Shown here: piece after piece, positions 19,031 through 31,673 of the stretch
Layout of the letters: each line of letters opens with the position of its first letter
Numbering within the stretch: position 1 is the stretch's first letter
From: Variovorax sp. S12S4
GTDB lineage: Bacteria > Pseudomonadota > Gammaproteobacteria > Burkholderiales > Burkholderiaceae_C
Reading direction: 5' to 3'
Assembly (NCBI RefSeq): GCF_023195515.1
Contig: NZ_JALPKR020000002.1
Coordinates: forward strand, 1,217,001 to 1,281,000
DNA: 64,000 bases
Made by a program: the position numbers and the translations under genes
The notes under the pieces: generated by a model
Told to the model about the DNA's origin: nothing
Seen by the model: the letters and a program-made list of their open reading frames with translations, nothing else
The model's database searches: none

Positions 19031-19049
19031 TTTGGACCAAATGGTCAAA
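19031..19049. promoter_or_regulatory. RutR operator upstream of rutA
   Basis: The segment TTTGGACCAAATGGTCAAA contains the perfect core GACCA-AA-TGGTC (19035-19046), matching the RutR consensus TTGACCAnnTGGTCAA with one flank mismatch. It sits 52 bases upstream of the sigma-54 element of rutA. Confidence 0.85.
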
Positions 19050-19100: not shown

Positions 19101-19117
19101 TGGCACGGGCCATGCAT
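19101..19117 (+). promoter_or_regulatory. Sigma-54 promoter of rutA
   Basis: TGGCACGGGCCATGCAT has the -24 GG and -12 GC with exactly 10 bases between. It predicts a transcript start near 19127, 24 bases before the rutA ATG. The E. coli rut operon is under NtrC control, so nitrogen limitation is the likely signal. Confidence 0.8.
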
Positions 19118-19150: not shown

Positions 19151-20263
19151 ATGAACGTCGGCATCTTCATCCCCATCGGCAACAACGGCTGGCTGCTCTC
19201 CGAAAACGCACCGCAGTACAAGCCGAGTTTCGAACTCAACAAGGAGATCACGCTCACGGCCGAGCGCTACGGCGTCGACTTCGTGCTGTCGATGATCAAG
19301 CTGCGCGGCTTTGGCGGCAAGACCGAGTTCTGGGACCACAACCTCGAGTCGTTCACGCTCATGGCCGGGCTCGCGGCCGTCACCACCAAGATCAAGCTCT
19401 TTGCCACCGCGGCCTCGCTGGTGATGCCGCCGGCCATCGTCGCGCGCATGGCATCGACCATCGATTCGATTTCCAACGGGCGCTTCGGCCTGAACCTTGT
19501 CACCGGCTGGCAGCGGCCTGAGTACTCGCAAATGGGCATGTGGCCCGGCGACCAGTTCTTCGGCACGCGCTACCAGTACCTGTCTGAATACATTCAGGTG
19601 CTGCGCGACCTGTGGGGCACCGGCCAATCGGACTTCAAGGGCGCGCACTTCCAGATGGACGACTGCCGCCTGAGCCCCCGGCCGCAAGCGGACATGAAGG
19701 TGATCTGCGCGGGCCAGAGCGACGCCGGCATGGACTTTTCCGCCAGGTACGCCGACTACAACTTCTGCTTCGGCAAAGGCGTGAACACGCCCAAGGCCTT
19801 TGCGCCCGCGGCCGAAAAGCTCATCGAGGCCACGGGCAAGACCGGCCGCCACGTGACCACCTACGTGCTGATGATGGTGATTGCCGACGAAACCGACGAA
19901 GCCGCGCGCGCCAAGTGGGAGCACTACAAGGCGGGCGCCGACCACGAAGCCATTGCCTGGCTGGGCCAGCAGGGCGCGGCCGACACCAAGTCGGGCGCCG
20001 ACACCAATGTGCGCCAGATGGCCGACCCGACCTCGGCCGTCAACATCAACATGGGCACGCTGGTGGGCTCGTACGCCACCGTTGCGCGCCTGCTCGACGA
20101 AATGGCCGAGGTGCCGGGCACCGAAGGCGTGTTGCTCACTTTCGACGATTTTCTGCAGGGTGTTGCGGCCTTCGGCGAACGCATCCAGCCGCTCATGAAG
20201 AGCCGCGCGCATGTGCAGAGCCCCGTGGCCTCGCAGGCCGAACCCGAGCGCCTTGCGGCCTGA
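19151..20263 (+). CDS. rutA: Pyrimidine monooxygenase RutA
   Basis: Flavin-dependent monooxygenase of the bacterial luciferase fold that opens the uracil ring to ureidoacrylate peracid. The 370-residue protein begins [22 protein letters not shown], the RutA hallmark, and carries [19 protein letters not shown] and VTGWQRPEY segments of the flavin pocket. Length agrees with E. coli RutA. ATG 19151 follows CTGGAGCTTCTGC with GGAG as ribosome site. It is the first gene of rutABCDEF, all on the + strand with short gaps or overlaps, under the RutR box and sigma-54 element upstream. Confidence 0.95.
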
Positions 20264-20277
20264 AAGGAACGACGCGC

Positions 20278-21069
20278 ATGGCCACGCCCGCACGCAACAC
20301 CACGCTCAGCTCGACCACGCCCGTCGGCGCCCCGCGCCTGCCCGGCGCACCCGCGCCGCTGGTGCTGCCCGCCCGGCCCGAACCGCTGGCGCTGCATGCC
20401 ACCGACTCGGCCCTGATCGTGGTCGACATGCAGAACGCCTACGCATCGATTGGCGGCTATGTCGATTCGGCGGGCTTCGATATTTCCGGCGCGCAAGGCA
20501 CCATCGCCAACATCGCGCGCACCATTGCGGCGGCGCGTGCGGCCGGCATGCTGGTGGTGTTTCTGCAGAACGGCTGGGACGCCGCCTACGTCGAGGCCGG
20601 CGGACCGGGCTCGCCCAACTGGCACAAGTCGAACGCGCTCAAGACCATGCGCGCCAAGCCCGAGCTCGCAGGCAAGTTCCTCGCCAAGGGCGGCTGGGAC
20701 TACGAACTCATCGCAGAGATGAAGCCGCAGCCCGGCGACATCGTGGTGCCCAAGACGCGCTACAGCGGCTTCTTCAACAGCACGCTCGACAGCACGCTGC
20801 GCGCACGCGGCATCCGCCACCTGGTGTTCACCGGCATCGCGACCAACGTGTGCGTGGAGTCGACGCTGCGCGATGCCTTCCACCTCGAATACTTCGCCGT
20901 GATGCTCGAAGACGCCACGCACGAGCTTGGCGGCGCGGCCATACAAAAGGCCTCCGTCTACAACGTCGAGACCTTCTTCGGCTGGGTTTCGACCGTGGAC
21001 CAGTTCTGCGCCACCTTTGCACCCCAGCCCGCCGCGCAGCCTGTAGCAGCTGAAGCGGCCATCGCCTGA
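20278..21069 (+). CDS. rutB: Peroxyureidoacrylate/ureidoacrylate amidohydrolase RutB
   Basis: Isochorismatase-like cysteine hydrolase that releases carbamate from the ring-opened product. It has 263 residues from ATG 20278, with AAGGA upstream. The catalytic Asp is in [10 protein letters not shown] near residue 45, and the nucleophile Cys is in [16 protein letters not shown] near residue 191, with the expected Lys in [10 protein letters not shown] near 159. About 15 extra N-terminal Pro/Ala residues precede the domain. It starts 14 bases after rutA. Confidence 0.93.
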
Positions 21070-21094: not shown

Positions 21095-21487
21095 ATGCCC
21101 AAGCAAGCCATCATCCCCGCCGGAACCACCACGCCCATCGCCCCGTTCGTGCCCGGCACCATGGCCGACGGCGTGGTCTACGTGTCGGGCACGCTGCCCT
21201 TCGACAAGGACAACAACGTGGTGCATGTGGGCGACGCCTCGGCGCAGACGCGCCACGTGCTCGAGACGATCCAGAACGTGATCAAAACGGCCGGCGGCAC
21301 CATGGACGACGTGACCTTCAACATGATCATGATCAAGGACTGGGCCGACTACGCGAAGGTGAACGCGGTGTACGCCGAGTTCTTTCCGGGCACCAAGCCT
21401 GCGCGCTACTGCATCCAGTGCGGCCTGGTAAAGCCTGATGCACTGGTCGAAATCGCCTCCATCGCCCACGTCGGCAACAAGGCCTGA
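21095..21487 (+). CDS. rutC: 3-aminoacrylate deaminase RutC (RidA/YjgF family)
   Basis: Small trimeric protein of 130 residues that deaminates 3-aminoacrylate to malonic semialdehyde. The RidA signature is present: [12 protein letters not shown] near residue 27, and [24 protein letters not shown] at the C-terminus with the ligand-binding Arg. AAAAGGAGCCC precedes ATG 21095, a strong ribosome site. Length is exactly that expected of RutC. Confidence 0.94.
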
Positions 21488-21489
21488 GC

Positions 21490-22290
21490 ATGCCGCTGCA
21501 CTACGAAGTGCATGGGCCGGCCGACGGCGAGGCTGTGCTGCTGTCGTCGGGCCTCGGCGGTTCGGCCGCCTTCTGGCAGCCGCAGATCGGCGCGCTCGTT
21601 GCAGCGGGCCATCGCGTGATTGCGTACGACCAGCGCGGCACGGGCCGCAGCCCCGCCACACTGAGCGCGGACTACGCCATCGCCGACATGGCCCGCGACG
21701 TGGTGCAGATTCTGGACGCCACGTCAACGCCGCGCTGCCACCTGGTGGGGCATGCGCTCGGCGGACTCGTCGGGCTGCAGCTGGCACTTGACGAGCCCAC
21801 GCGCGTGGCGAGCCTGGTGCTGGTCAATGCATGGTCGAAGCCCAACCCGCATTCGGCTCGCTGCTTCGAGGCACGGCTCGCGCTGCTCGATGCCTGCGGA
21901 CCGCGCGCATACGTGGAAGCGCAGCCGATCTTCTTGTACCCCGCGGCCTGGTGCGCGGAACATGCGCAGCGCGTGGCCGACGAGGTCGACCATGCGTTTG
22001 CGCACTTTCCCGGTGAAGCCAACATGCGTGCGCGCATCGGCGCGCTGCGCGCCTTCGACATCGACGCGCATCTTGGCGACATCACGGCGCCCACGCTGGT
22101 GGCCGCCGCCATGGACGACGCGCTAGTGCCGTGGACCTGCTCGCAGCACCTGGCCGATGGCCTGCACGACGTGACGCTGCACTTCATGCCGCACGGCGGC
22201 CATGCGCACAGCGTGACCGAGGCCGACGCCTTCAACCGCAGCCTGCTCGACTTTCTTTCCCGGGTCAGCGCACCCGGCGTTCCCGCATGA
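21490..22290 (+). CDS. rutD: RutD alpha/beta-hydrolase-fold aminohydrolase
   Basis: A 266-residue alpha/beta hydrolase of the rut pathway thought to speed hydrolysis of carbamate or aminoacrylate. The oxyanion region is [13 protein letters not shown] and the nucleophile elbow reads [14 protein letters not shown] near residue 82, with Ala where classical hydrolases have Ser. The C-terminal acid and His appear in [11 protein letters not shown] and PHGGHAHSV. It starts two bases after rutC and overlaps rutE by four bases. Pathway position is firm; the chemistry is the least understood of the set. Confidence 0.9.
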
Positions 22291-22883
22291 CCACCACCAC
22301 CGCCCTCGACGACGCCGCACTGGCACTTCTCTTTACCGAGGCACGCAGCCACAACGGCTGGACCGCGGAGCCCGTGACGGATGAGCAGCTCCGGCAGGTC
22401 TATGCGCTTGCCCGCATGGGCCCGACCTCGGCCAACTGCTCGCCCGCACGCTTCGTGTTCGTTCGCACCCCCGAGGGCAAGCAACGCCTTGCGCCTGCGC
22501 TTTCCAAGGGCAACCTTGAGAAGACCATGACGGCACCGGTCACCGTCATCGCAGCATGGGACCGCAAGTTCTACGACAAGCTGCCCATGCTGTTCCCGCA
22601 CACCGATGCGCGCAGCTGGTTCACCGGCAGCCCCGAGGCCGCGCACGAAACCGCCTTTCGCAATGCCAGCCTGCAGGCGGGCTACCTGCTGCTCGCCGCG
22701 CGCGCGGTGGGGCTCGATGCAGGCCCGATGTCGGGCTTCGACAAGGCGAAGGTGGATGCCGCGTTCTTCGAGGGCACCGACTGGAGCACCAACTTCTTGA
22801 TCAACCTCGGCCACGGCGATGCGGCCAAGGTGTTCGGCCGCCTGCCGCGGCTCAGCTTCGAAGAAGCCTGCGTCCTCGCCTGA
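22287..22883 (+). CDS. rutE: Malonic semialdehyde reductase RutE (nitroreductase family)
   Basis: FMN-dependent nitroreductase-fold enzyme of 198 residues reducing malonic semialdehyde to 3-hydroxypropionate. ATG 22287 overlaps the rutD stop (ATGA). The FMN-binding [19 protein letters not shown] near residue 42 and the late [16 protein letters not shown] near 147 match RutE. FINLGHGD-type segment (FLINLGHGD) and the terminal [11 protein letters not shown] are also conserved. Confidence 0.93.
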
Positions 22884-22905: not shown

Positions 22906-23448
22906 ATGCTGCTGAACGCAATGGCCTCCCACCACGTCACGCCGAGCGGCCTGCCCCACGCGCTGCCCAAGGCCGACTACCGCAATGCCATGGCGCGGCT
23001 GGGCGCGGCGGTCAACATCATCACCACTGACGGGCCTGCGGGCCGTGCCGGGTTCACCGCATCGGCCGTGTGCAGCGTGACCGACGAGCCGCCGATGCTG
23101 CTGGTGTGCCTGAACCGGTCGGCATCGGTGTATCCCGCGTTCACGGCCAATGGCGTGCTGTGCGTGAACGTGCTCGCGGCGGGTCACCAGGCGCTCTCGG
23201 GCCTGTTCGGCGGCAAGACGCCGATGGACGAGCGCTTTGCCGCGGCCCGCTGGAGCCGCAAGGCGACCGGATCGCCGGTGCTGGAAGATGCCGCGGCGTC
23301 ATTCGACTGCCGTGTGGTGCGGGCCACGAGTGCGGGAACGCATGACGTGCTGTTCTGCGAGGCGCTGGCGATCGCGATTGGCGGGGCGGCGCAGAGCCTT
23401 ATTTATTTCGACCGGCGGTACCACGAGATCGCGGCACCGCCGCATTGA
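22906..23448 (+). CDS. rutF: FMN reductase RutF
   Basis: Flavin reductase of the split-barrel (flavin reductase-like) family that supplies reduced flavin to RutA. It has 180 residues from ATG 22906. Motifs: [42 protein letters not shown] (FMN site, given by its core TASAVCSV) and SGLFGG. It is the last rut gene; no rutG permease follows. A hairpin repeat lies between it and the convergent rutR. Confidence 0.92.
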
Positions 23449-23493: not shown

Positions 23494-24237
23494 TCACCGC
23501 GGCGCAATCCCCTGCAGCACGATCCGCTGCACGTTCTCCACCGTCTGCTCGAAGAACACCGGGTCCTCCAGCGTGTGCCCCGTCAGCGCCTGCACCTGCA
23601 CGCCGAAATCCGCGTAGTGCTGCGTGACGGCCCAGAGCGCAAAAATCAGGTGATGCGGATCGACCGGCGCGAGCTTGCCCGACGCGACCCATGAACGGAT
23701 GACCTCCGACTTGCGTTCCACCAGCGTGCGCAGTTCGCGGTCGAGCTCGTCGCGCAGCAGCGGCGCTCCCTGGATCATTTCAAGGCAGAACAGGCGCGAC
23801 GCATCGGGCCGGTCGCGCGAAACCACGAGCTTGCGGCGGATGTAGCCGCCGATGGCCTCGCCCGGGTCCTGCTCGGCACTGAAGCCGCGCAGCGGCTCAA
23901 GCCACAGCGCGAGCAGGTCGCGCAGCACGTTCACATACAGCTCTTCCTTGTTGGCAAAGTAGTAGAGCAGGTTGCTCTTCGACACATCGGCGCGCGCCGC
24001 CACCTGGTCGATCGAGGTGCCATGCAATCCGAAGCGCGAGAACAGGCCCAGCGCCGCACCGAGGATGGCGCTGCGCTTGTCCTCGATCTGGCGCAGCCTG
24101 CGGCTCACCGCCGAGGCGCTGCGCACCGGGGGCTTCGCGGACTTGCGCACCAGGCCCTTCACGGCGCTCTTCACAGCGCTCTTGGCTGGAGTCTTCTTTG
24201 TGCTGCTGGCTGCGGCCAGCGCTTTGGTCTTCGGCAT
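23494..24237 (-). CDS. rutR: TetR-family repressor RutR with Lys-rich N-terminal tail
   Basis: Uracil/thymine-responsive repressor. The HTH region FGLHGTSIDQVAARADVSK and YYFANKEELYVNVLRDLLALWL match E. coli RutR closely, as do DRPDASRLFCLEMIQGAPLL, GWVKSGKLAP-like SWVASGKLAPVDPHHLIF and the C-terminus FFEQTVENVQRIVL. I use ATG 24237 (MPKTKALAAA), which has GAGGG just upstream; a start at 24270 adds 11 residues but has no ribosome site. The first 45 residues are an Ala/Lys/Ser-rich tail absent from E. coli RutR. It is convergent with rutF and divergent from the oxygenase gene, so it sits inside its own regulon. Confidence 0.93.
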   Translation of the reverse strand: MPKTKALAAASSTKKTPAKSAVKSAVKGLVRKSAKPPVRSASAVSRRLRQIEDKRSAILGAALGLFSRFGLHGTSIDQVAARADVSKSNLLYYFANKEELYVNVLRDLLALWLEPLRGFSAEQDPGEAIGGYIRRKLVVSRDRPDASRLFCLEMIQGAPLLRDELDRELRTLVERKSEVIRSWVASGKLAPVDPHHLIFALWAVTQHYADFGVQVQALTGHTLEDPVFFEQTVENVQRIVLQGIAPR

Positions 24238-24367
24238 CTTCCCTCGCTTCTCGATTTGCAGGCTCTTCATTCAACGCGCACCACTGTAAGGCCACGGTGC
24301 ATCGCGTTGCGCCAGGCAGACCGTTCAGCACGCGCGGCGCGCACCATGCTGACGCGACAAATGCGTT

Positions 24368-24384
24368 TTGTCCATTTGGTCCAA
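24368..24384. promoter_or_regulatory. RutR-type operator upstream of oxygenase gene
   Basis: TTGTCCATTTGGTCCAA differs by a single base from the reverse complement of the box upstream of rutA and fits TTGACCAnnTGGTCAA with one core mismatch. It directly abuts the sigma-54 element, a position suited to repression. Confidence 0.75.
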
Positions 24385-24385
24385 C

Positions 24386-24402
24386 TGGCACAGACGTTGC
24401 AT
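24386..24402 (+). promoter_or_regulatory. Sigma-54 promoter of the oxygenase/transport operon
   Basis: TGGCACAGACGTTGCAT is a near-perfect -24/-12 element (consensus TGGCAC-N5-TTGC), with GG and GC 10 bases apart. It predicts a start near 24412, 24 bases before the ATG, the same geometry as at rutA. Confidence 0.85.
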
Positions 24403-24435
24403 GGCGAAAGGCATGCCAAGCACGAGGACCGACAC

Positions 24436-25440
24436 ATGACCACCCTGCTGTCCGTACCCATCATCGATCTCGCGCCCTACTTCGCCGGCACGGCCGAAGG
24501 CAAGGAACAGGTCGCGAAGAAAGTCGACGAGGCCTGCCGCAGCATCGGCTTTCTCGTCATCACCAACCACGGCATTCCGGCCGAACTGATCGCGCGCGTG
24601 TCATCGCTCTCGCGCCAGTTCTTCGACATGCCGCTGGCCGAGAAGCGCAAGGTCGACCGGCCGCGCGAAGACGCGGTGCGCGGCTACAGCGCAGTCGGCG
24701 AAGAAGGGCTTTCGTACAGCCTGGAAGAGGCCGCGCCCGGCGACCTGAAGGAGTCGTTCTCGATCGGCCCCTCGAACGTGCCCGACGACGACTACCACCG
24801 CGGCCCCGCCGCCGGCCCGCACTTCGAGCCCAACAGCTGGCCACCGATCGAAGGTTTCCGCGAAGCGTACGAAGCCTACTTCGAGGCCATGAGCGATCTC
24901 TCCCGCTCGCTGATGCGCATCTTCGCGCTCGGCCTTGCGCTGCCCGAGACGTTCTTCGACGACAAGATCGACAAGCACATCAGCATGTTCCGCGTGCTGA
25001 GCTATCCGCCGCAGCGTGAAGCGCCGCTGCCGGGCCAGTTGCGCGCCGGCGCGCACAGCGACTACGGCAGCCTCACCATCGTGCTGCCCGACGACAAGGG
25101 CCTGCAGGTGTTCAACAAGGCGGGTCAGTGGGTCGACGTACCGCAGGTGGAAGGCGGCCTGGTGGTCAACATTGCCGACCTGATGATGCAGTGGACCAAC
25201 GACCAGTGGGTGTCCACGCTGCACCGCGTGGTCAATCCGCCGTTCGAAGTGGCCAGCACCAACCGCCGCCAGTCGCTGGTGTTCTTTCACCAGCCCAACT
25301 ACGACGCGATGGTCGAGTGCCTGCCAAGCTGCCTGGCGCCGGGCGAGCAGCCGAAGTACGCGCCCATTTCATCGGGCGACCACCTGACCTCCAAGTTCGT
25401 GAAGCAGACGACCTTTGGTGGCACCAAGGCTGTGGCCTAG
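24436..25440 (+). CDS. 2-oxoglutarate/Fe(II)-dependent oxygenase, isopenicillin N synthase-like
   Basis: A 334-residue oxygenase of the IPNS-like superfamily. The N-terminal non-haem dioxygenase domain begins VPIIDLAPYF and includes GFLVITNHGIP. The metal triad is visible: His and Asp in AGAHSDYGSL near residues 207-209 and the distal His in STLHRVVNPP near 262. RxS for 2-oxoglutarate is in NRRQSLVFFHQ near 277. ATG 24436 follows a GAGGACC. The RutR box and sigma-54 promoter place it in the rut regulon. Fungal thymine 7-hydroxylase is in the same superfamily, so a nucleobase substrate such as thymine or a purine is a reasonable guess but unproven. Confidence 0.85.
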   Translation: MTTLLSVPIIDLAPYFAGTAEGKEQVAKKVDEACRSIGFLVITNHGIPAELIARVSSLSRQFFDMPLAEKRKVDRPREDAVRGYSAVGEEGLSYSLEEAAPGDLKESFSIGPSNVPDDDYHRGPAAGPHFEPNSWPPIEGFREAYEAYFEAMSDLSRSLMRIFALGLALPETFFDDKIDKHISMFRVLSYPPQREAPLPGQLRAGAHSDYGSLTIVLPDDKGLQVFNKAGQWVDVPQVEGGLVVNIADLMMQWTNDQWVSTLHRVVNPPFEVASTNRRQSLVFFHQPNYDAMVECLPSCLAPGEQPKYAPISSGDHLTSKFVKQTTFGGTKAVA

Positions 25441-25492
25441 GCACCGTGATGAAAACTTGTTTTTTCAGTCGCGGTGCTGTGCGTGAGTTGCC

Positions 25493-25755
25493 TTGTTCGG
25501 GGCGCGCACCCGCCGACGGGGTACCTTGCTCCGCGAATGTCCCCCGGCCTGCGGCCTCCTCCTTTATTTCGCTGCGCAAGGCACCCCGCCAGCGGGAGCG
25601 TTACAAAGAGCGGTCGTTGATCAGCGGTACACCAGCAGCGTGCCCCAGTGCACAGGGCATCGGGTGCTCCGCGCAGCGAAATAAAGGAGGAGGGCGAAGC
25701 CCGGGGACATTCGCGGAGGGGAGTACCCGGTGGCCTTTGCACAAGCCCTGAACAA
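25493..25755. repeat. Inverted-repeat element with 94-base arms
   Basis: Arms 25493-25586 and 25662-25755 are imperfect reverse complements, very strong over the inner part (CTCCTCCTTTATTTCGCTGCGC against its complement, shown here only in part) and over CCGCGAATGTCCCC. The outer ends are TTGTTC and GAACAA. The central 75 bases contain TGATCA. Short open frames in both arms are by-products of composition. No transposase is present, so it is a MITE-like non-autonomous element or a large stem structure. It fills the 355-base gap between the oxygenase and VOC genes. Confidence 0.8.
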
Positions 25756-25795
25756 GAACAACAGCGCCAAAAACGAAGAGCAATGAGCCCTTGAC

Positions 25796-26182
25796 ATGCC
25801 CCATCTCTCTTACGTCAACGTCTTCGCCAAAGACGTGGTCGCACTCAGCGGCTTCTACCAGCGCGTGTTCGGATTCCCCGAGATCGAGGCCATTCGCTCG
25901 CCGATCTTTCGTGGACTCGACACCGGCAAGTCGAGCCTCGGCTTCAACGCGCTCGATGCCTACGAACTATTGCGCCTGGCCGAGTTTTCCGACACGCGCG
26001 GCGTCAAGTTTTTGCTGAACATCGACGTCGACAGCAAGGACGACGTGGACCGCATGGTGCCCGTCGCGCTCGAGGCCGGCGCCACGCTGGTGAAGCCGCC
26101 TTACGTCACCTACTACAACTGGTACCAGTCGGTGCTGCTCGACCCCGAGGGCAATGTGTTTCGCATCAACTTCATGATGTGA
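25796..26182 (+). CDS. VOC/glyoxalase-fold protein
   Basis: A 128-residue single-domain protein of the vicinal oxygen chelate fold. It starts MPHLSYVNVFAKDVVALSGFYQRVFGF, the usual first beta-alpha-beta unit. It ends YYNWYQSVLLDPEGNVFRINF, whose DPEGNxxxI is the family signature with a metal-binding acid. It lies between the oxygenase and the importer, separated by the inverted-repeat element on one side and 64 bases on the other. Metal ligands on the first half (His near residue 3) fit an active enzyme or a binding protein. The substrate is unknown; its place suggests a step of the same catabolic route. Confidence 0.75.
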   Translation: MPHLSYVNVFAKDVVALSGFYQRVFGFPEIEAIRSPIFRGLDTGKSSLGFNALDAYELLRLAEFSDTRGVKFLLNIDVDSKDDVDRMVPVALEAGATLVKPPYVTYYNWYQSVLLDPEGNVFRINFMM

Positions 26183-26246
26183 CGCGCGCGGCACCTCCGT
26201 CTTTCAACGCTTCTTCCCTGACTTGCTTCTCACGAAAGGTCGCTCC

Positions 26247-27353
26247 ATGCTGCGCACTCCCACCCACGGCTTCACCTCCGGCCTTGCCCTGGCGCTTGCA
26301 GCCGGCGGCGCGTTCGTCTCGCTGCCCGCGGCAGCCGCCGACGGCTTTACGCTCAAGGACAAGCCCAAGATCGCAATGCTCTACTTCGGCCCGAAGAACG
26401 ACGGCGGCTGGACGCAGGCCTTCGACGAAGCGCGCGTGAAGATCGAGAAGGAAATCGGCCAGAAGATCCAGTTTGTGGAGAACGTTCCCGAAGACGCATC
26501 GGCCATCAAGCCTGCGGCCGAGAAGTTCATCCAGCGCGGTGCCAACATCGTGATCGGCACCGCCTTCGGCTATTCGGACAGCTTCAAGGACTTGGCCGCC
26601 AAGTACCCGGGGGTGGCTTTTCTCAATGGCTCGGGCACCACCAACGGCAGCAACCTCGAATCGTTCTACGGCCGCACCTACGAGAGCCAGTACCTCTGCG
26701 GCATGGCCGCGGGCGCGGCCTCCAAGACGGGCAAGCTCGGCTTCGTTGCGGCCAATCCGTTCGGCGTGGTGAACTGGACCATCAACGCCTTCGCGCTCGG
26801 TGCGCAGAAGATGAACCCCAACGCCACCGTCAACGTGATCTACACCGGCGCCTGGAACGACCCCGTGAAGGAACGCGCCGCCGCGGCCGCGCTGATCGAC
26901 CAGGGCGCCGACGTGATCGGGCAGCACGTGGACTCGCCCACGCCGCAGATCGTGGCACAGGAGCGCGGCGTGTACGGCACCGGCCACCACCGCGACCTGC
27001 GCCAGTTTGCACCCAAGGCCACGCTGTGCTCGTCGGTGTGGGTGTGGGACCGCTTCTTGACGCCCGAGCTCAAGAAGATCATGGCCGGTGACTGGAAGCC
27101 CGGCCAGTACGGCGCCTTCATCGAGATGAAGGACGGCGGCACCGACATTGCTGGCTTCGGCCCCGCGGTGCCCAAGGACAAGGCCGCGGCCATTACCGCC
27201 GAGCGCGACGCGATCATGAAGGGCAAGCAGGTCTATGCCGGCCCGCTTGCCGACCGCGACGGCAAGGAGCGCGTGGCCAAGGGCGCGGTGCTTTCGGACG
27301 CCGATCTGTGGAAGATGGACTGGTTCGTCAAGGGCGTGGTCACACAGAAGTAA
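26247..27353 (+). CDS. BMP-family ABC transporter substrate-binding protein
   Basis: Periplasmic binding protein of the Bmp/PnrA family, whose characterised members bind nucleosides or purines. ATG 26247 gives a signal peptide ending LPAAAADG near residue 34. The mature part begins KPKIAMLYFGPKNDGGWTQAF, the family start, and has FGYSDSFKDLAAKYPGVAFLNGSG and GKLGFVAANPFGVVNWTINAFALGA. Length is 368 residues. It heads a set with an ATPase and two RnsB/NupC-type permeases directly downstream. Since rutG is absent from the rut operon, this importer is the probable route for the nucleobase or nucleoside. Confidence 0.9.
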   Translation: MLRTPTHGFTSGLALALAAGGAFVSLPAAAADGFTLKDKPKIAMLYFGPKNDGGWTQAFDEARVKIEKEIGQKIQFVENVPEDASAIKPAAEKFIQRGANIVIGTAFGYSDSFKDLAAKYPGVAFLNGSGTTNGSNLESFYGRTYESQYLCGMAAGAASKTGKLGFVAANPFGVVNWTINAFALGAQKMNPNATVNVIYTGAWNDPVKERAAAAALIDQGADVIGQHVDSPTPQIVAQERGVYGTGHHRDLRQFAPKATLCSSVWVWDRFLTPELKKIMAGDWKPGQYGAFIEMKDGGTDIAGFGPAVPKDKAAAITAERDAIMKGKQVYAGPLADRDGKERVAKGAVLSDADLWKMDWFVKGVVTQK

Positions 27354-27384
27354 CCCAAGAGAAGAAAAAGCAAGGCGATCCGGC

Positions 27385-28917
27385 ATGCCCAACGCGCTCG
27401 AACTCACCGGCATCCGCAAGAGCTTCGATGGCTTTGCGGCGCTGACCGACGTGCACTTTGCCGCGCGCTGGGGCGAGGTGCATGCGCTCCTGGGCGAGAA
27501 CGGCGCGGGCAAGTCGTCGCTGATGAACATTGCGGCCGGGCTCTATGCACCTGAAGCCGGCCAGCTCTTGGTCGACGACAACGTGGTGCGCTTTGCCGGC
27601 CCGGCCGACGCGGCAAGGCAACGCATCGGCATGGTTCACCAGCACTTCAAGCTGGTGCGGCCGTTCACGGTGGCAGAGAACATCCTTCTCACCGCACCGC
27701 CCGCGCCCGGGTTCCAGAGCCACGGGGAGCGCCTTCGCGAAATCACGCGCAGCATCCGCAACAAGGCCTCGGAGCTGGGCTTCGACATCGATCCCGCAAG
27801 GCGCGTCGATTCGCTCTCGATTGCCGAGCAGCAGCGGGTGGAAATTCTCAAGGTGCTGCTTGCGGGCGCCCGCATCCTGATACTCGACGAACCCACCGCG
27901 GTGCTTACCGACCAGGAGGCTGCGCGCCTTCTGCAAACCGTGCGCGGCCTTGCGCGAAGCAGGCTCCGCCGTGGTGCTGGTCACGCACAAGATGGCCGAC
28001 GTGAAAACGTATGCCGACCGGGTAACGGTGATGCGCGGCGGCCGCACGGTGGCCACGCTGGCGCCAGATACAGCCTCGGTGGCCGAGCTGGTGAAGCTCA
28101 CGGTGGGCGAATCGATTGCCACGCAAAGTTTCCAGGCGGCAAAGTCGCCGCGCGGCGCTGTGCGGCTCGCGGTGCGCGGCCTGCGCTCTGCGCCCCCGCC
28201 GGAAGGCCGCCGCGTGCTCGACGGCGTCGACCTCGAACTGCATGCGGGTGAAATCTACGGACTGGCCGGTGTCGGCGGCAACGGACAGGGCGAGTTGGCC
28301 GGCGCCATCATGGGCCTGCCCGATGCGGGCGGTGCGCTCGAAGGCGAGATCCACCTCAGCGGCCACGGCGACCTGAAGGCCATGAGTGCACCAGCGCGCC
28401 GCAACGTCGGCATTGCCGCCATTCCGGCCGACCGCTACGGCCTTGCGCTGGCCGGCGGCCTCTCGGTGGCCGAGAACTACGCCATCGGCCGCGTGCACAC
28501 CGGCCGCTACGGCCCGGCGTGGCATCTGCGGCGCGGCCGCATCCAGGCCGATACGCAGGAGGCGGTTCGCGCCTTCGATGTGCTGGGGTGCGCTCGGTCG
28601 CGCAGAAGGCCGCGCTGCTCTCCGGCGGCAACGCACAGAAGCTGGTGCTCGCGCGGGAGTTCGGCAAGTCACCCTCGCTGGTGCTGGCGCACAGCCCGAG
28701 CCGCGGGCTCGACGTTCGCGCGAGCGCCGAGGTGCATGCGCGCCTGCGCGCGGCGCGCGACAGTGGCGCCGCGGTGCTGCTGATCAGCGAAGACCTCGAC
28801 GAAGTGCTGCAGCTGGCCGACCGCGTGGGCGTGATGACACGCGGACGCATTGCAGGCGAGTTCGCGCAACCCGCCGACCGGCAGGCGATTGGACAGGCGA
28901 TGGTGGACCATGGTTGA
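27385..28917 (+). pseudogene. Nucleoside-type ABC transporter ATP-binding protein, two frameshifts
   Basis: Double-domain ATPase of the RnsB/NupA/MglA type, about 510 residues if repaired. Domain 1 (from ATG 27385) has Walker [13 protein letters not shown], the LSIAEQQRVEILKVLL signature and Walker B ILILDEPTAVLT. The frame is lost at 27952-27956 in a CG repeat; two more bases would give LAREAGSAVVLVTHK. Domain 2 continues in another frame with GVGGNGQGELAGAI. It breaks again in a G4 run at 28585-28588, where one G restores LGVRSVAQKAALLSGGNAQKLVLA. The last frame ends at 28917, overlapping the permease start by eight bases. All domains are otherwise intact, which argues for read errors. Confidence 0.85.
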
Positions 28918-30061
28918 CGCCACGCTCGCGGCCATTGCGCAGCCCGCGCAGACCGACCCGGATGCCGCGCAACGGACACGCCGCCAGCCGCTGGCGCGCC
29001 GCCGCTATGCGCTGGAGATCCGCCAGCACATGGGGCGGCGGCGGCAGGCGCTGATTCTTGCGGCGGCGCTGCTGGCCGGCCTGGCAATTTCCGCCGCCAT
29101 TCTTGTGGCCGCCGGCGTTCCCGCGGACGAACTCGCCAACGAGTTCGTGATGCAGACCTTTTTCGACGGCCAGAACTTTCGCGCCGTGCTGTTCCAGGCT
29201 GCGCCGATGATCCTCGTGGGCCTGGCAGGCTCGCTGGCGTTTCGCGCGCGCTTCTGGAACCTGGGCCTCGAGGGCCAGATGGTGTGGGGCGCCATCGGTG
29301 CCACGGCCGTCTCGATGTGGCAGATCGGCCCCGAGCCGCTGCGCCTGCCGCTGATGTTTGCGGCCGCCATCGGCTGCGGGCTGCTCTGGGTGCTGGGGCC
29401 GGCGTGGCTGAAGATCAGGCTCGGCGTGAACGAAATCATCTCCACGCTGATGCTCAACTACATGGCGGCCAACTTTTTGCTGCACCTGGTGTACGGCAGC
29501 TGGAAGGACCCGAAGGACAACTTTCCCTATTCGCCGCAGTTCCGCGCCTTCGAGCGGCTGCCCGAACTGGGCGCCGGCGTGAGCAGCGCCATCTTGCTCA
29601 CGGCGGCGGTGGCGCTGCTGGCATGGTGGCTGGTGGGCGTGAGCCGAGCCGGGCTGTACCTGCGCTTCGTCGATGCCAATCCGCGCGTGGCGCATGCCAA
29701 CGGCGTGCCGGTGCGCCGCACCATCTATGGCGCCGTGCTGCTGTCGGGCGCGATGGCCGGGCTGGCAGGGTTTGCGGTGGCCTCGGGGCAGGAAGGGCGG
29801 CTCACGCAGGCCTTCTACCAAGGCTATGGCTTCTCCGGCATCCTCATCGCCTTTCTGGCGCGCAACAACCCGCTCGCGGCCACCGTGGTGGCGCTGCTGG
29901 TAGCGGCGCTGTTCGTCACCGGCCGCAGCCTGCAGGTGTTCTACCAGGTGCCGTTCTCGATGGTGCAGCTCATCCAGGCCATCATCGTGGTGTGCGTGGC
30001 GTCGAGCGATTTCTTCATTCGCCACCGGCTGCGGCGCGTGGGTGGGGAGCAAGCGCAATGA
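28910..30061 (+). CDS. ABC transporter permease, nucleoside/BMP type (first of two)
   Basis: Inner-membrane permease of the RbsC/BPD-2 family in the subgroup paired with BMP binding proteins. It has 383 residues with a 45-residue cytosolic N-terminus, then about nine hydrophobic segments. Family marks: FWNLGLEGQMVWGA near residue 112, LGVNEIISTLMLNYMA near 174 and YGFSGILIAFLARNNP near 306. ATG 28910 overlaps the ATPase gene by eight bases and its stop overlaps the next permease (ATGA). Together they form one importer. Confidence 0.9.
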   Translation: MVDATLAAIAQPAQTDPDAAQRTRRQPLARRRYALEIRQHMGRRRQALILAAALLAGLAISAAILVAAGVPADELANEFVMQTFFDGQNFRAVLFQAAPMILVGLAGSLAFRARFWNLGLEGQMVWGAIGATAVSMWQIGPEPLRLPLMFAAAIGCGLLWVLGPAWLKIRLGVNEIISTLMLNYMAANFLLHLVYGSWKDPKDNFPYSPQFRAFERLPELGAGVSSAILLTAAVALLAWWLVGVSRAGLYLRFVDANPRVAHANGVPVRRTIYGAVLLSGAMAGLAGFAVASGQEGRLTQAFYQGYGFSGILIAFLARNNPLAATVVALLVAALFVTGRSLQVFYQVPFSMVQLIQAIIVVCVASSDFFIRHRLRRVGGEQAQ

Positions 30062-30990
30062 GCGGAAGCATCGTCCTCAACTGGCTCGCGAGCACGCCCG
30101 ACTTCGCGGTGCCCTATGCGCTTGCCGCGCTGGGCCTGATCATCAGCGAGCGCGCGGGCGTGCTTTCGCTGGGCGCCGAAGGGCTGATGCTAGTGGGCGC
30201 ACTCGCGGGCATCGGTGCGCAAATCGCCTTGGGGCAACCGGGCGTGTCGCTGGTGCTTGCCATGCTGGCGGCCAGCGCGGTGTCGCTGCTGTTCGCGGTG
30301 ATGGTGATCTGGCTGCGCGTGAACCAGGTGATTGCGGGGCTGGCACTGGTGTTCTTCTGCCAGGGCTTCACGGCACTGGTCGGCTCGCTGGCCGAATGGA
30401 CCAACCACGCCACCGAAGGCATCGGCTCGATGGCGCTGTGGCCGCTGTCCCTCATGCCCGGTGCCGGCCGCCTGTTCGAACAGAACGCAATGGTGTGGCT
30501 CACGCTGCCCATCTTCGTTGCGGTGGCGTGGTTTCTCTCGCGCACCTCGGCCGGGCTGCGGCTGCGCGCGGTGGGCGAAAACCCGCAGGCGGCCGATGCG
30601 GCCGGCATTCGCGTCACCACATGGCGGCTGGCCGCGGTGCTGGCGGGATCGGCGCTGGTGGGCCTTGCGGGTGCCTACATCTCGGTGGTGAGCACCAAAC
30701 TGTGGATCGCAGGCATGACCGGCGGGCGCGGCTGGATTGCGGTGGGGCTGGTGATCTTCGCGCGCTGGTCGCCGTGGAAGGCGCTGGTGGGTGCGCTGCT
30801 GTTCGGCTGCATCGAGGCGCTCATTCCCCAGCTTGCGGCGGCCGGAGTGCAGCTGCCGCAGTACTTCGTGATGATGACGCCCTATGCGGTGACGCTGGGC
30901 GTGATGGTGTGGGTCGCATTGGCCCGGCGCGGCGGAGACGACGAGCCGGGCGCGCTCGGCCAACCCTATGTTCGGGAGGAGCGGCGATGA
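30058..30990 (+). CDS. ABC transporter permease, nucleoside/BMP type (second of two)
   Basis: Partner permease of 310 residues with about eight hydrophobic segments. Marks of the second subunit of the pair: PYALAALGLIISERAGVLSLGAEGLMLVGA near the N-terminus (core ERAGVLSLGAEGLML), LRVNQVIAGLALVFF, and GRGWIAVGLVIFARWSPW near residue 221. Both ends overlap neighbours by four bases (ATGA), linking it to permease 1 and to the hydrolase gene, so transport and hydrolase are co-translated. Confidence 0.9.
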   Translation: MSGSIVLNWLASTPDFAVPYALAALGLIISERAGVLSLGAEGLMLVGALAGIGAQIALGQPGVSLVLAMLAASAVSLLFAVMVIWLRVNQVIAGLALVFFCQGFTALVGSLAEWTNHATEGIGSMALWPLSLMPGAGRLFEQNAMVWLTLPIFVAVAWFLSRTSAGLRLRAVGENPQAADAAGIRVTTWRLAAVLAGSALVGLAGAYISVVSTKLWIAGMTGGRGWIAVGLVIFARWSPWKALVGALLFGCIEALIPQLAAAGVQLPQYFVMMTPYAVTLGVMVWVALARRGGDDEPGALGQPYVREERR

Positions 30991-31673
30991 AGGCCTGGGT
31001 GTACGGCGAAGAGCGCGAACTCGGCGCCGCGCAGTTTGCAGACTACCTCGATCCGGCCACCACGGCTGTGGTGTCCATCGACATGCACCGCGGCCACCTG
31101 GACGACAGCCCCGACTGCCCCTGCCCCGCGCCGCGTGCACGCGACGTGGTGGCGCCCATCGACAGCTTTCACGACGATGCCCGCGCGCTGGGCGTGCGCA
31201 TCGTGCACGTCAAGTCGGTGCTGCGGCCCGGTGGCGCCGATGACATCAACGGCATTCCGGCTGCGTGGCGGCGCACCTTTCCGCTGCACGTGGGCGCCAT
31301 ACCGAATGCCGATGCGCATGCCATCGAAGGCTCGCGCTGGACCGAGTGGGTTACGCGCGTGGAGCCGGGCGACATGCGCGTGGAAAGCAAGCGCCGGCTG
31401 TCGGCTTTCTATCCGACAGACCTCGACTTTCTGCTGCGCAACCAGCGCATTGAAACGGTGGTGCTCAACGGCGGGTTTACCGATTGCTGCGTGCTCAACA
31501 CCGCGTTCGACGCCAACAACCACAACTACCGCGTGATCGTGCTGCGCGACCTGGTGCGCGGCACCGATGCGCATCTGGAAAGCGCCGCGCTCAGCATGGT
31601 GTCGCTGCACCTGGGGCTGGTGGTCGACTCGGCCGAACTGCTGCGCCAGTGGCGCGGCGCTGGCCAAAGCTAG
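30987..31673 (+). CDS. Isochorismatase-family cysteine hydrolase
   Basis: A 228-residue hydrolase of the family that includes RutB, nicotinamidase and N-carbamoylsarcosine amidase. The catalytic Asp is in VVSIDMHRGHL near residue 32, a Lys in VESKRRLSAFYPT near 132 and the nucleophile Cys in GGFTDCCVLNTAFDA near 169. It is not a second copy of RutB: the N-terminus and the CP-rich loop (DDSPDCPCPAPRARD) differ. ATG 30987 overlaps the permease stop. As last gene of the RutR/sigma-54-linked operon it probably opens an amide or ureido bond of the imported compound. Confidence 0.85.
   Translation: MKAWVYGEERELGAAQFADYLDPATTAVVSIDMHRGHLDDSPDCPCPAPRARDVVAPIDSFHDDARALGVRIVHVKSVLRPGGADDINGIPAAWRRTFPLHVGAIPNADAHAIEGSRWTEWVTRVEPGDMRVESKRRLSAFYPTDLDFLLRNQRIETVVLNGGFTDCCVLNTAFDANNHNYRVIVLRDLVRGTDAHLESAALSMVSLHLGLVVDSAELLRQWRGAGQS

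Follow-up and report, generated by a model that had tools for sequence, protein, structure and literature searches.

The rutABCDEFG operon of Escherichia coli and its regulator gene rutR are the described counterpart of the locus analyzed here, which lies in a 64-kb stretch of DNA (the window) at positions 1217001-1281000 of contig NZ_JALPKR020000002.1 in the 5.97 Mb genome of Variovorax sp. S12S4. In both bacteria a RutR box and a sigma-54 promoter precede rutA, and the genes follow in the order rutABCDEF (PMC10891134, available text). The Variovorax locus differs in having no rutG and in carrying a second operon behind its own RutR/sigma-54 promoter. This operon encodes a 2-oxoglutarate (2OG)/Fe(II) oxygenase (OXY), a VOC-fold protein, a BMP-type ATP-binding cassette (ABC) importer and a cysteine hydrolase (HYD). 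The box and the sigma-54 element of rutA are 64 bp apart in E. coli K-12, compared with 52 bp at rutA and 2 bp at the second operon here; judged by the consensus used here, the E. coli rutA promoter has 3 mismatches in the box and 2 in the sigma-54 element.

A survey of the RutR regulon covered 68 genomes of 13 taxa, with about 10.9 genes per genome (PMC5343134). The words oxygenase, BMP and rutA are absent from its main text, and the operon may already be listed in its supplementary tables. No paper describing such an operon was found in the literature searched, most subscription journals lying outside the search. Two proteins of the operon have well described relatives. According to the available text of PMC6834077, in AtzT, a periplasmic guanine/2-hydroxyatrazine binding protein, Y45 and W194 flank the bound guanine, which is contacted by S97, E165, N218 and N220; the dissociation constants of the protein are 0.11 uM for guanine, 620 uM for thymine and 1600 uM for uracil. 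The fungal thymine-7-hydroxylase (T7H) contacts thymine through N87, E122 and N294 (PMC4787775).

The second operon very probably belongs to the rut regulon, as judged from its promoter. That the importer and the oxygenase serve to take up a modified, probably methylated, uracil-type base and oxidize it for ring opening is a reading in which we have about even confidence.

Promoter of the second operon

The two promoters of the window comprise the following elements.

24368..24383, no strand: second RutR-type box TTGTCCATTTGGTCCA (pattern match and conservation in relatives)
24386..24401, + strand: sigma-54 promoter TGGCACAGACGTTGCA of the second operon (0 mismatches to TGGCACRNNNNTTGCW)
19033..19048, no strand: RutR-type box TGGACCAAATGGTCAA upstream of rutA (52 bp before the sigma-54 element of rutA)
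19101..19116, + strand: sigma-54 -24/-12 element TGGCACGGGCCATGCA of rutA (1 mismatch to consensus)

Mismatches were counted against an E. coli-type RutR palindrome and the sigma-54 consensus TGGCACRNNNNTTGCW. The box TTGTCCATTTGGTCCA is the reverse complement of TGGACCAAATGGTCAA save for one base, and it is separated by 2 bp from the -24 element of a perfect sigma-54 promoter. This arrangement had been described in an initial annotation made from the sequence alone, which took it for the start of an extended rut system; it is confirmed here, and the wider proposal is supported by its context and conservation. Within the window, RutR matches with up to two mismatches occur only at 19033 and 24368, and sigma-54 matches with up to one mismatch only at 19101 and 24386, each paired with a RutR box.

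The RutR box by itself was rejected as evidence. At up to two mismatches the genome has 31 sites, compared with 48 for a reversed-pattern control, and one mismatch or fewer is reached by the rutA box alone. The box alone is unremarkable; its pairing with the sigma-54 element and the conservation of that pairing carry the case. Ten of the 31 genome sites were read out (L083-L092), and a sigma-54 element (up to one mismatch) lies within 150 bp only at the two sites of the window.

For comparison, the best 80 of 321 stretches encoding a relative were kept, so that locus counts describe near relatives; these loci are interrelated and not independent. The nearest are Variovorax strains, with up to 98% identity over the oxygenase. 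The tight pair (box with up to two mismatches, sigma-54 element with up to one) is found in 63 of the 80 loci, with a gap of 2 bp in 53 and 4 bp in 10. Another 14 have a loose pair, in which a weak box lies 50-55 bp upstream (up to five mismatches in the box, two in the sigma-54 element). The sigma-54 element before the oxygenase has at most one mismatch in 75/80 loci and at most two in 80/80. In mononucleotide shuffles of the upstream regions the tight pair occurred in 0 of 8000 and the sigma-54 element, counted at up to one mismatch only, in 15 of 8000. At rutA, a box (up to three mismatches) precedes the sigma-54 element (up to two) by 49-55 bp in 51 of 61 loci. Candidate NtrC half-sites, GCACCA, occur upstream in 55/80 loci, compared with 7% of mononucleotide shuffles, and GCAC-N4-7-GTGC in 17/80, compared with 3%. 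An operon of this kind is also present on plasmid pTM3 of the alphaproteobacterium Tistrella mobilis, where the box CTGACCAGTTGGTCAG is followed at a distance of 41 bp by a perfect sigma-54 element.

Association with uracil catabolism

The oxygenase is closely tied to RutA. In a family survey of 397 genomes (oxygenase counted at E <= 1e-120), the oxygenase is found in 23 genomes, RutA in 25 and both in 23 (Fisher 2.5e-35). By genus, all 11 oxygenase genera are among the 12 RutA genera (p 5.9e-15). Two genomes of the same genus as the window (G366 and G516) have neither protein. In an order-wide sample of 250 genomes, RutA exceeds the cut-off in two, which are the two with oxygenases of at least 85% identity; the genomes that encode homologues of 67, 55 and 48% identity have no RutA above the cut-off.

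Among the 80 loci, where gene presence was scored at 50% identity or more, rutA is in view in 65 and rutR in 71. Of the other 15 loci, 13 (all except L024 and L036) were searched genome-wide for RutA. RutA exceeds the cut-off in nine of these genomes, and L059 has two overlapping pieces below it. In the remaining three, L046 (Paraburkholderia), L049 and L054 (both Paracidovorax), RutA was not found genome-wide. In each of the three, a dihydropyrimidinase (573-583 bits) and a PreA-like protein are encoded about 2 kb apart; the latter scores 170-178 bits, short of the 270-bit cut-off of TIGR01037. An NCS1 permease is encoded with them, and a divergent TetR gene is 36-39% like rutR at the protein level. 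In the one reductive locus scored, L140, PreA reaches 745 bits against a cut-off of 335; the reductive pathway of the two Paracidovorax loci rests on family matches and the NCS1 match. TIGR02033 was rejected as a marker of the pathway because it occurs in 163 of 397 genomes and in 14 of the 23 with the oxygenase; gene context was used instead. Near the divergent TetR gene of the reductive operon, L138 and L139 have a palindrome, TTTACCA-N2-CGGTAAA, with a perfect sigma-54 element, and L140 has a sigma-54 element with one mismatch.

That the module accompanies either ring-opening pathway suggests that what it supplies is a free base; its presence beside the reductive pathway was seen in three genomes of two lineages. 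Together with the promoter data, the case for co-regulation and partnership with pyrimidine catabolism is strong.

Organization of the operon

The second operon contains the following features.

24436..25440, + strand: 2OG/Fe(II) oxygenase OXY, IPNS-family, T7H-like fold (PF14226 and PF03171)
25516..25731, no strand: palindromic insertion element between OXY and VOC, outside the system (gap comparison with relatives)
25796..26182, + strand: VOC-fold protein, partner of the oxygenase (in 78/80 loci)
26247..27353, + strand: BMP/AtzT-like periplasmic binding protein (PF02608)
27385..28917, + strand: importer ATPase, frame broken in this assembly (pieces translated apart, first two scanned)
28910..30061, + strand: importer permease 1 (PF02653)
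30058..30990, + strand: importer permease 2 (PF02653)
30987..31673, + strand: isochorismatase-type cysteine hydrolase HYD, optional member (PF00857; biuret hydrolase nearest)

The core of the module is oxygenase, VOC protein and BMP importer. The two loci without VOC (L018, L036) stop just past the oxygenase. Among the importer components, the BMP protein is kept in 78/80 loci, the ATPase in 76 and the permeases in 72 and 70; the hydrolase is kept in 54. Several of the misses are due to short contigs; L043, however, lacks the ABC genes across 21 kb.

The identities given to these genes by the initial annotation are confirmed. Two points need correction: in the window OXY and VOC are 355 bp apart, and the ATPase frame is broken. 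The wide gap (median 4 bp in 78 relatives) is due to the palindromic insertion. Compared with six aligned relatives, the ATPase gene has one extra base near 27961 and lacks one near 28588; its first two pieces are in one frame in 75/75 relatives. The two single-base differences first disrupt and later restore the reading frame. The break may be a sequencing error or a real defect.

The palindromic element is at most 260 bp long and looks like a small mobile element. The gap at the same place exceeds 200 bp in 5 of 78 relatives, and in L026 a copy lies between rutF and rutR.

Oxygenase

Among 1000 Foldseek matches, re-examined for structural rank, the closest solved fold to OXY is fungal T7H, which also ties for its best sequence match. 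OXY has the IPNS-type fold, with the HxD...H motif and the 2OG-binding residues in place, and shares with Neurospora T7H the 2-His-1-Asp site and the aromatic sandwich. The two enzymes differ in the polar contacts to thymine: the equivalents of N87, E122 and N294 are V, S and Q in 81/81 OXY orthologues.

The initial annotation had proposed that the oxygenase converts a modified base, thymine or another, into one accepted by RutA, by analogy with fungal thymine hydroxylation. The fold and the cofactor residues fit this proposal; its thymine version fares less well. A module in which OXY makes 5-hydroxymethyluracil, or a further product, from thymine for RutA and the second hydrolase would agree with the T7H match and with the title of a cited reference, in which RutR is termed uracil/thymine-sensing; a full T7H route would also need a 5-carboxyuracil decarboxylase. 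However, the thymine contacts are replaced throughout, and the hydrolase is dispensable. Moreover, thymine is a direct substrate of both RutA and the reductive pathway (PMC7662398, available text), which makes it a weak candidate, and genomes with the reductive pathway still keep the module. We consider thymine hydroxylation unlikely, though it survives better than the other alternatives.

Importer

The best sequence match of the binding protein is AtzT (E 1.7e-66), with which it shares the aromatic sandwich. It differs in the guanine contacts. On an alignment matched by hand, the equivalents of Y45, W194, S97, E165, N218 and N220 are W, W, A, V/Q, H and D across 78 sequences, and the Tistrella protein (46% identity) keeps W, W, A, H and D, as read by eye. 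The fixed replacement of the guanine contacts implies a changed, fixed ligand, which the context of the operon suggests may be a pyrimidine.

Import and oxidation of a purine or methylpurine, merely co-switched with rut by nitrogen limitation, would be consistent with the guanine held by the nearest solved binding protein and with the adenine held by the next nearest, 3s99. It would also agree with the 48% oxygenase homologue that lies with XdhA/XdhB, PbuX and AtzE, and with a Marinobacter paralogue near an AtzB-like amidohydrolase (read by eye). Against it stand the replaced guanine contacts, the RutR box kept in most loci and the occurrence of the oxygenase with RutA in 23/23 family genomes, so that a purine module appears rather improbable.

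With the E. coli protein as query, RutG was absent from the window and from all 80 loci, the remainder of those genomes not being searched; the same query picks up PbuX in L122 at 1.6e-18. No NCS2 permease is encoded in the 64-kb window. The suggestion that the importer stands in for the missing rutG is supported, as it is the only nucleobase-type importer in view. That it merely replaces RutG for uracil, with a downstream or side product of Rut catabolism as the substrate of oxygenase and VOC, would fit the lack of RutG and the tight pairing with RutA but is very doubtful, because the module is kept without RutA in L046, L049 and L054, whose reductive operon has its own NCS1 permease, and because no rut gene was found in 27 kb of Tistrella pTM3, which carries the operon (the chromosome was not searched).

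Cysteine hydrolase

The nearest NCBI models of HYD are BiuH, PRK11440 (an unnamed hydrolase model) and RutB, all far below cut-off: HYD scores 45.1 bits on the RutB model TIGR03614 (cut-off 378) and 65.5 bits on the BiuH model NF050097 (cut-off 370). For 13 of the 26 loci without HYD in view the genomes were searched at E <= 1e-20; no match was found in 12, and the L043 genome has one at another place. HYD is present in L049 and L054, both from genomes without RutA. The idea that it takes the ureido product of RutA is thus not supported. HYD is optional in the module, and that product need not be its substrate.

Proposed function

Under nitrogen limitation, sigma-54 polymerase with NtrC would transcribe the operon, as its promoter suggests, and RutR would, as at rutA, keep it repressed in the absence of uracil or a similar base. 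The BMP/AtzT-like importer would bring in a modified base of the uracil type, in free form, rather than guanine, and the oxygenase with its constant VOC partner would oxidize this base, probably at a methyl group on C5 or N. The product would be a base accepted by the resident ring-opening pathway, Rut in most genomes and reductive PreTA in a few. Where present, HYD may handle a side product or an alternative substrate. With moderate confidence, the operon can be classed as a nitrogen-scavenging accessory operon of pyrimidine catabolism.

Several points weigh against the uptake and oxidation of a modified uracil. The ligand and the activity of the module are predicted only, and the importer of this Variovorax strain may not function. 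The relatedness of the genomes inflates the co-occurrence p value, and two of the 25 RutA genomes lack the oxygenase. Seventeen of the 80 loci have no tight pair, and three of these (L045, L046, L054) have no loose pair either. The T7H stacking residues are undiagnostic, F292 and an aromatic residue at Y217 each occurring in 17/17 aligned sequences; being common to the aligned paralogues, they were rejected as proof of a thymine enzyme. Finally, the 48% homologue lies, with a VOC protein, in a true xanthine dehydrogenase/PbuX cluster (L122), which makes purines possible in the wider family.

To our knowledge, little has been described of how soil and water bacteria deal with modified pyrimidine bases. 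Given its close tie to RutA and its constant pocket residues, the operon could reveal a catabolic step and an importer ligand that are both new. More tentatively, it may represent a bacterial route, not yet described, by which methylated uracils are used, for instance those released in tRNA or rRNA turnover. In such a route, a dedicated BMP system would import the base, a T7H-fold oxygenase with VOC would demethylate it or oxidize its methyl group, and the product would pass to the Rut or the reductive pathway, under RutR/sigma-54 control in alpha-, beta- and gammaproteobacteria.

rut genes of the window

The first operon and its regulator were assigned as follows.

19151..20263, + strand: rutA (TIGR03612 706 bits, cut-off 498)
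20278..21069, + strand: rutB (TIGR03614 403.6 bits, cut-off 378)
21095..21487, + strand: rutC (TIGR03610 over cut-off)
21490..22290, + strand: rutD (TIGR03611 over cut-off)
22287..22883, + strand: rutE, RutE-type reductase (NF003768, malonic semialdehyde reductase, over cut-off)
22906..23448, + strand: rutF (TIGR03615 over cut-off; no rutG after it)
23494..24270, - strand: rutR, divergent (NF011584 295 bits, cut-off 230; TIGR03613 314.9 bits, under 368)

If the start at 24270 is right, the TetR domain of RutR is preceded at the N-terminus by about 55 extra residues rich in lysine and alanine.

Wider oxygenase family

Paralogues of the oxygenase lie in varied surroundings. In Rhodococcus one is accompanied by an NCS2 permease and by a second oxygenase together with a VOC protein, in Rhizobium by a pseudouridine-phosphate glycosidase and a nucleoside hydrolase, and in Shinella by BMP systems, an amidase and an amidohydrolase. 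On pRL12 of Rhizobium johnstonii 3841 (L152), an oxygenase 40% like that of the window has an ABC importer on one side and, on the other, a kinase and pseudouridine-phosphate glycosidase gene. The paralogue near the AtzB-like amidohydrolase of Marinobacter is another one. We read the family as oxygenases for modified nucleobases or nucleosides, of which the rut-linked clade is one fixed branch. The demethylation of 2'-O-methyl nucleosides by PHYHD1-like dioxygenases involves another oxygenase family (PMC12709175, available text).

A second IPNS-type oxygenase occurs in 18 loci, namely L027 (16931-20987) and 17 others at least 60% identical to it. A PotD-like gene is present in 17 of the 18, and in L027 further ABC genes lie directly behind the hydrolase. 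In L047 the gene of this oxygenase is flanked on either side by a BMP gene. OXY2, a second oxygenase (32% identical), is not orthologous to the protein of the Rhizobium pseudouridine cluster (31%).

A class-wide search for the VOC protein gave 2 of 240 genomes, and in the second (L147) the last 15 kb are identical to another locus of the analysis. L122 and L147 come from genomes listed under different families (G074 and G810), and the identical stretch, compared over 15 kb, ends contigs of the same length, 27,595 bases. This identity may reflect the same organism, transfer or contamination.

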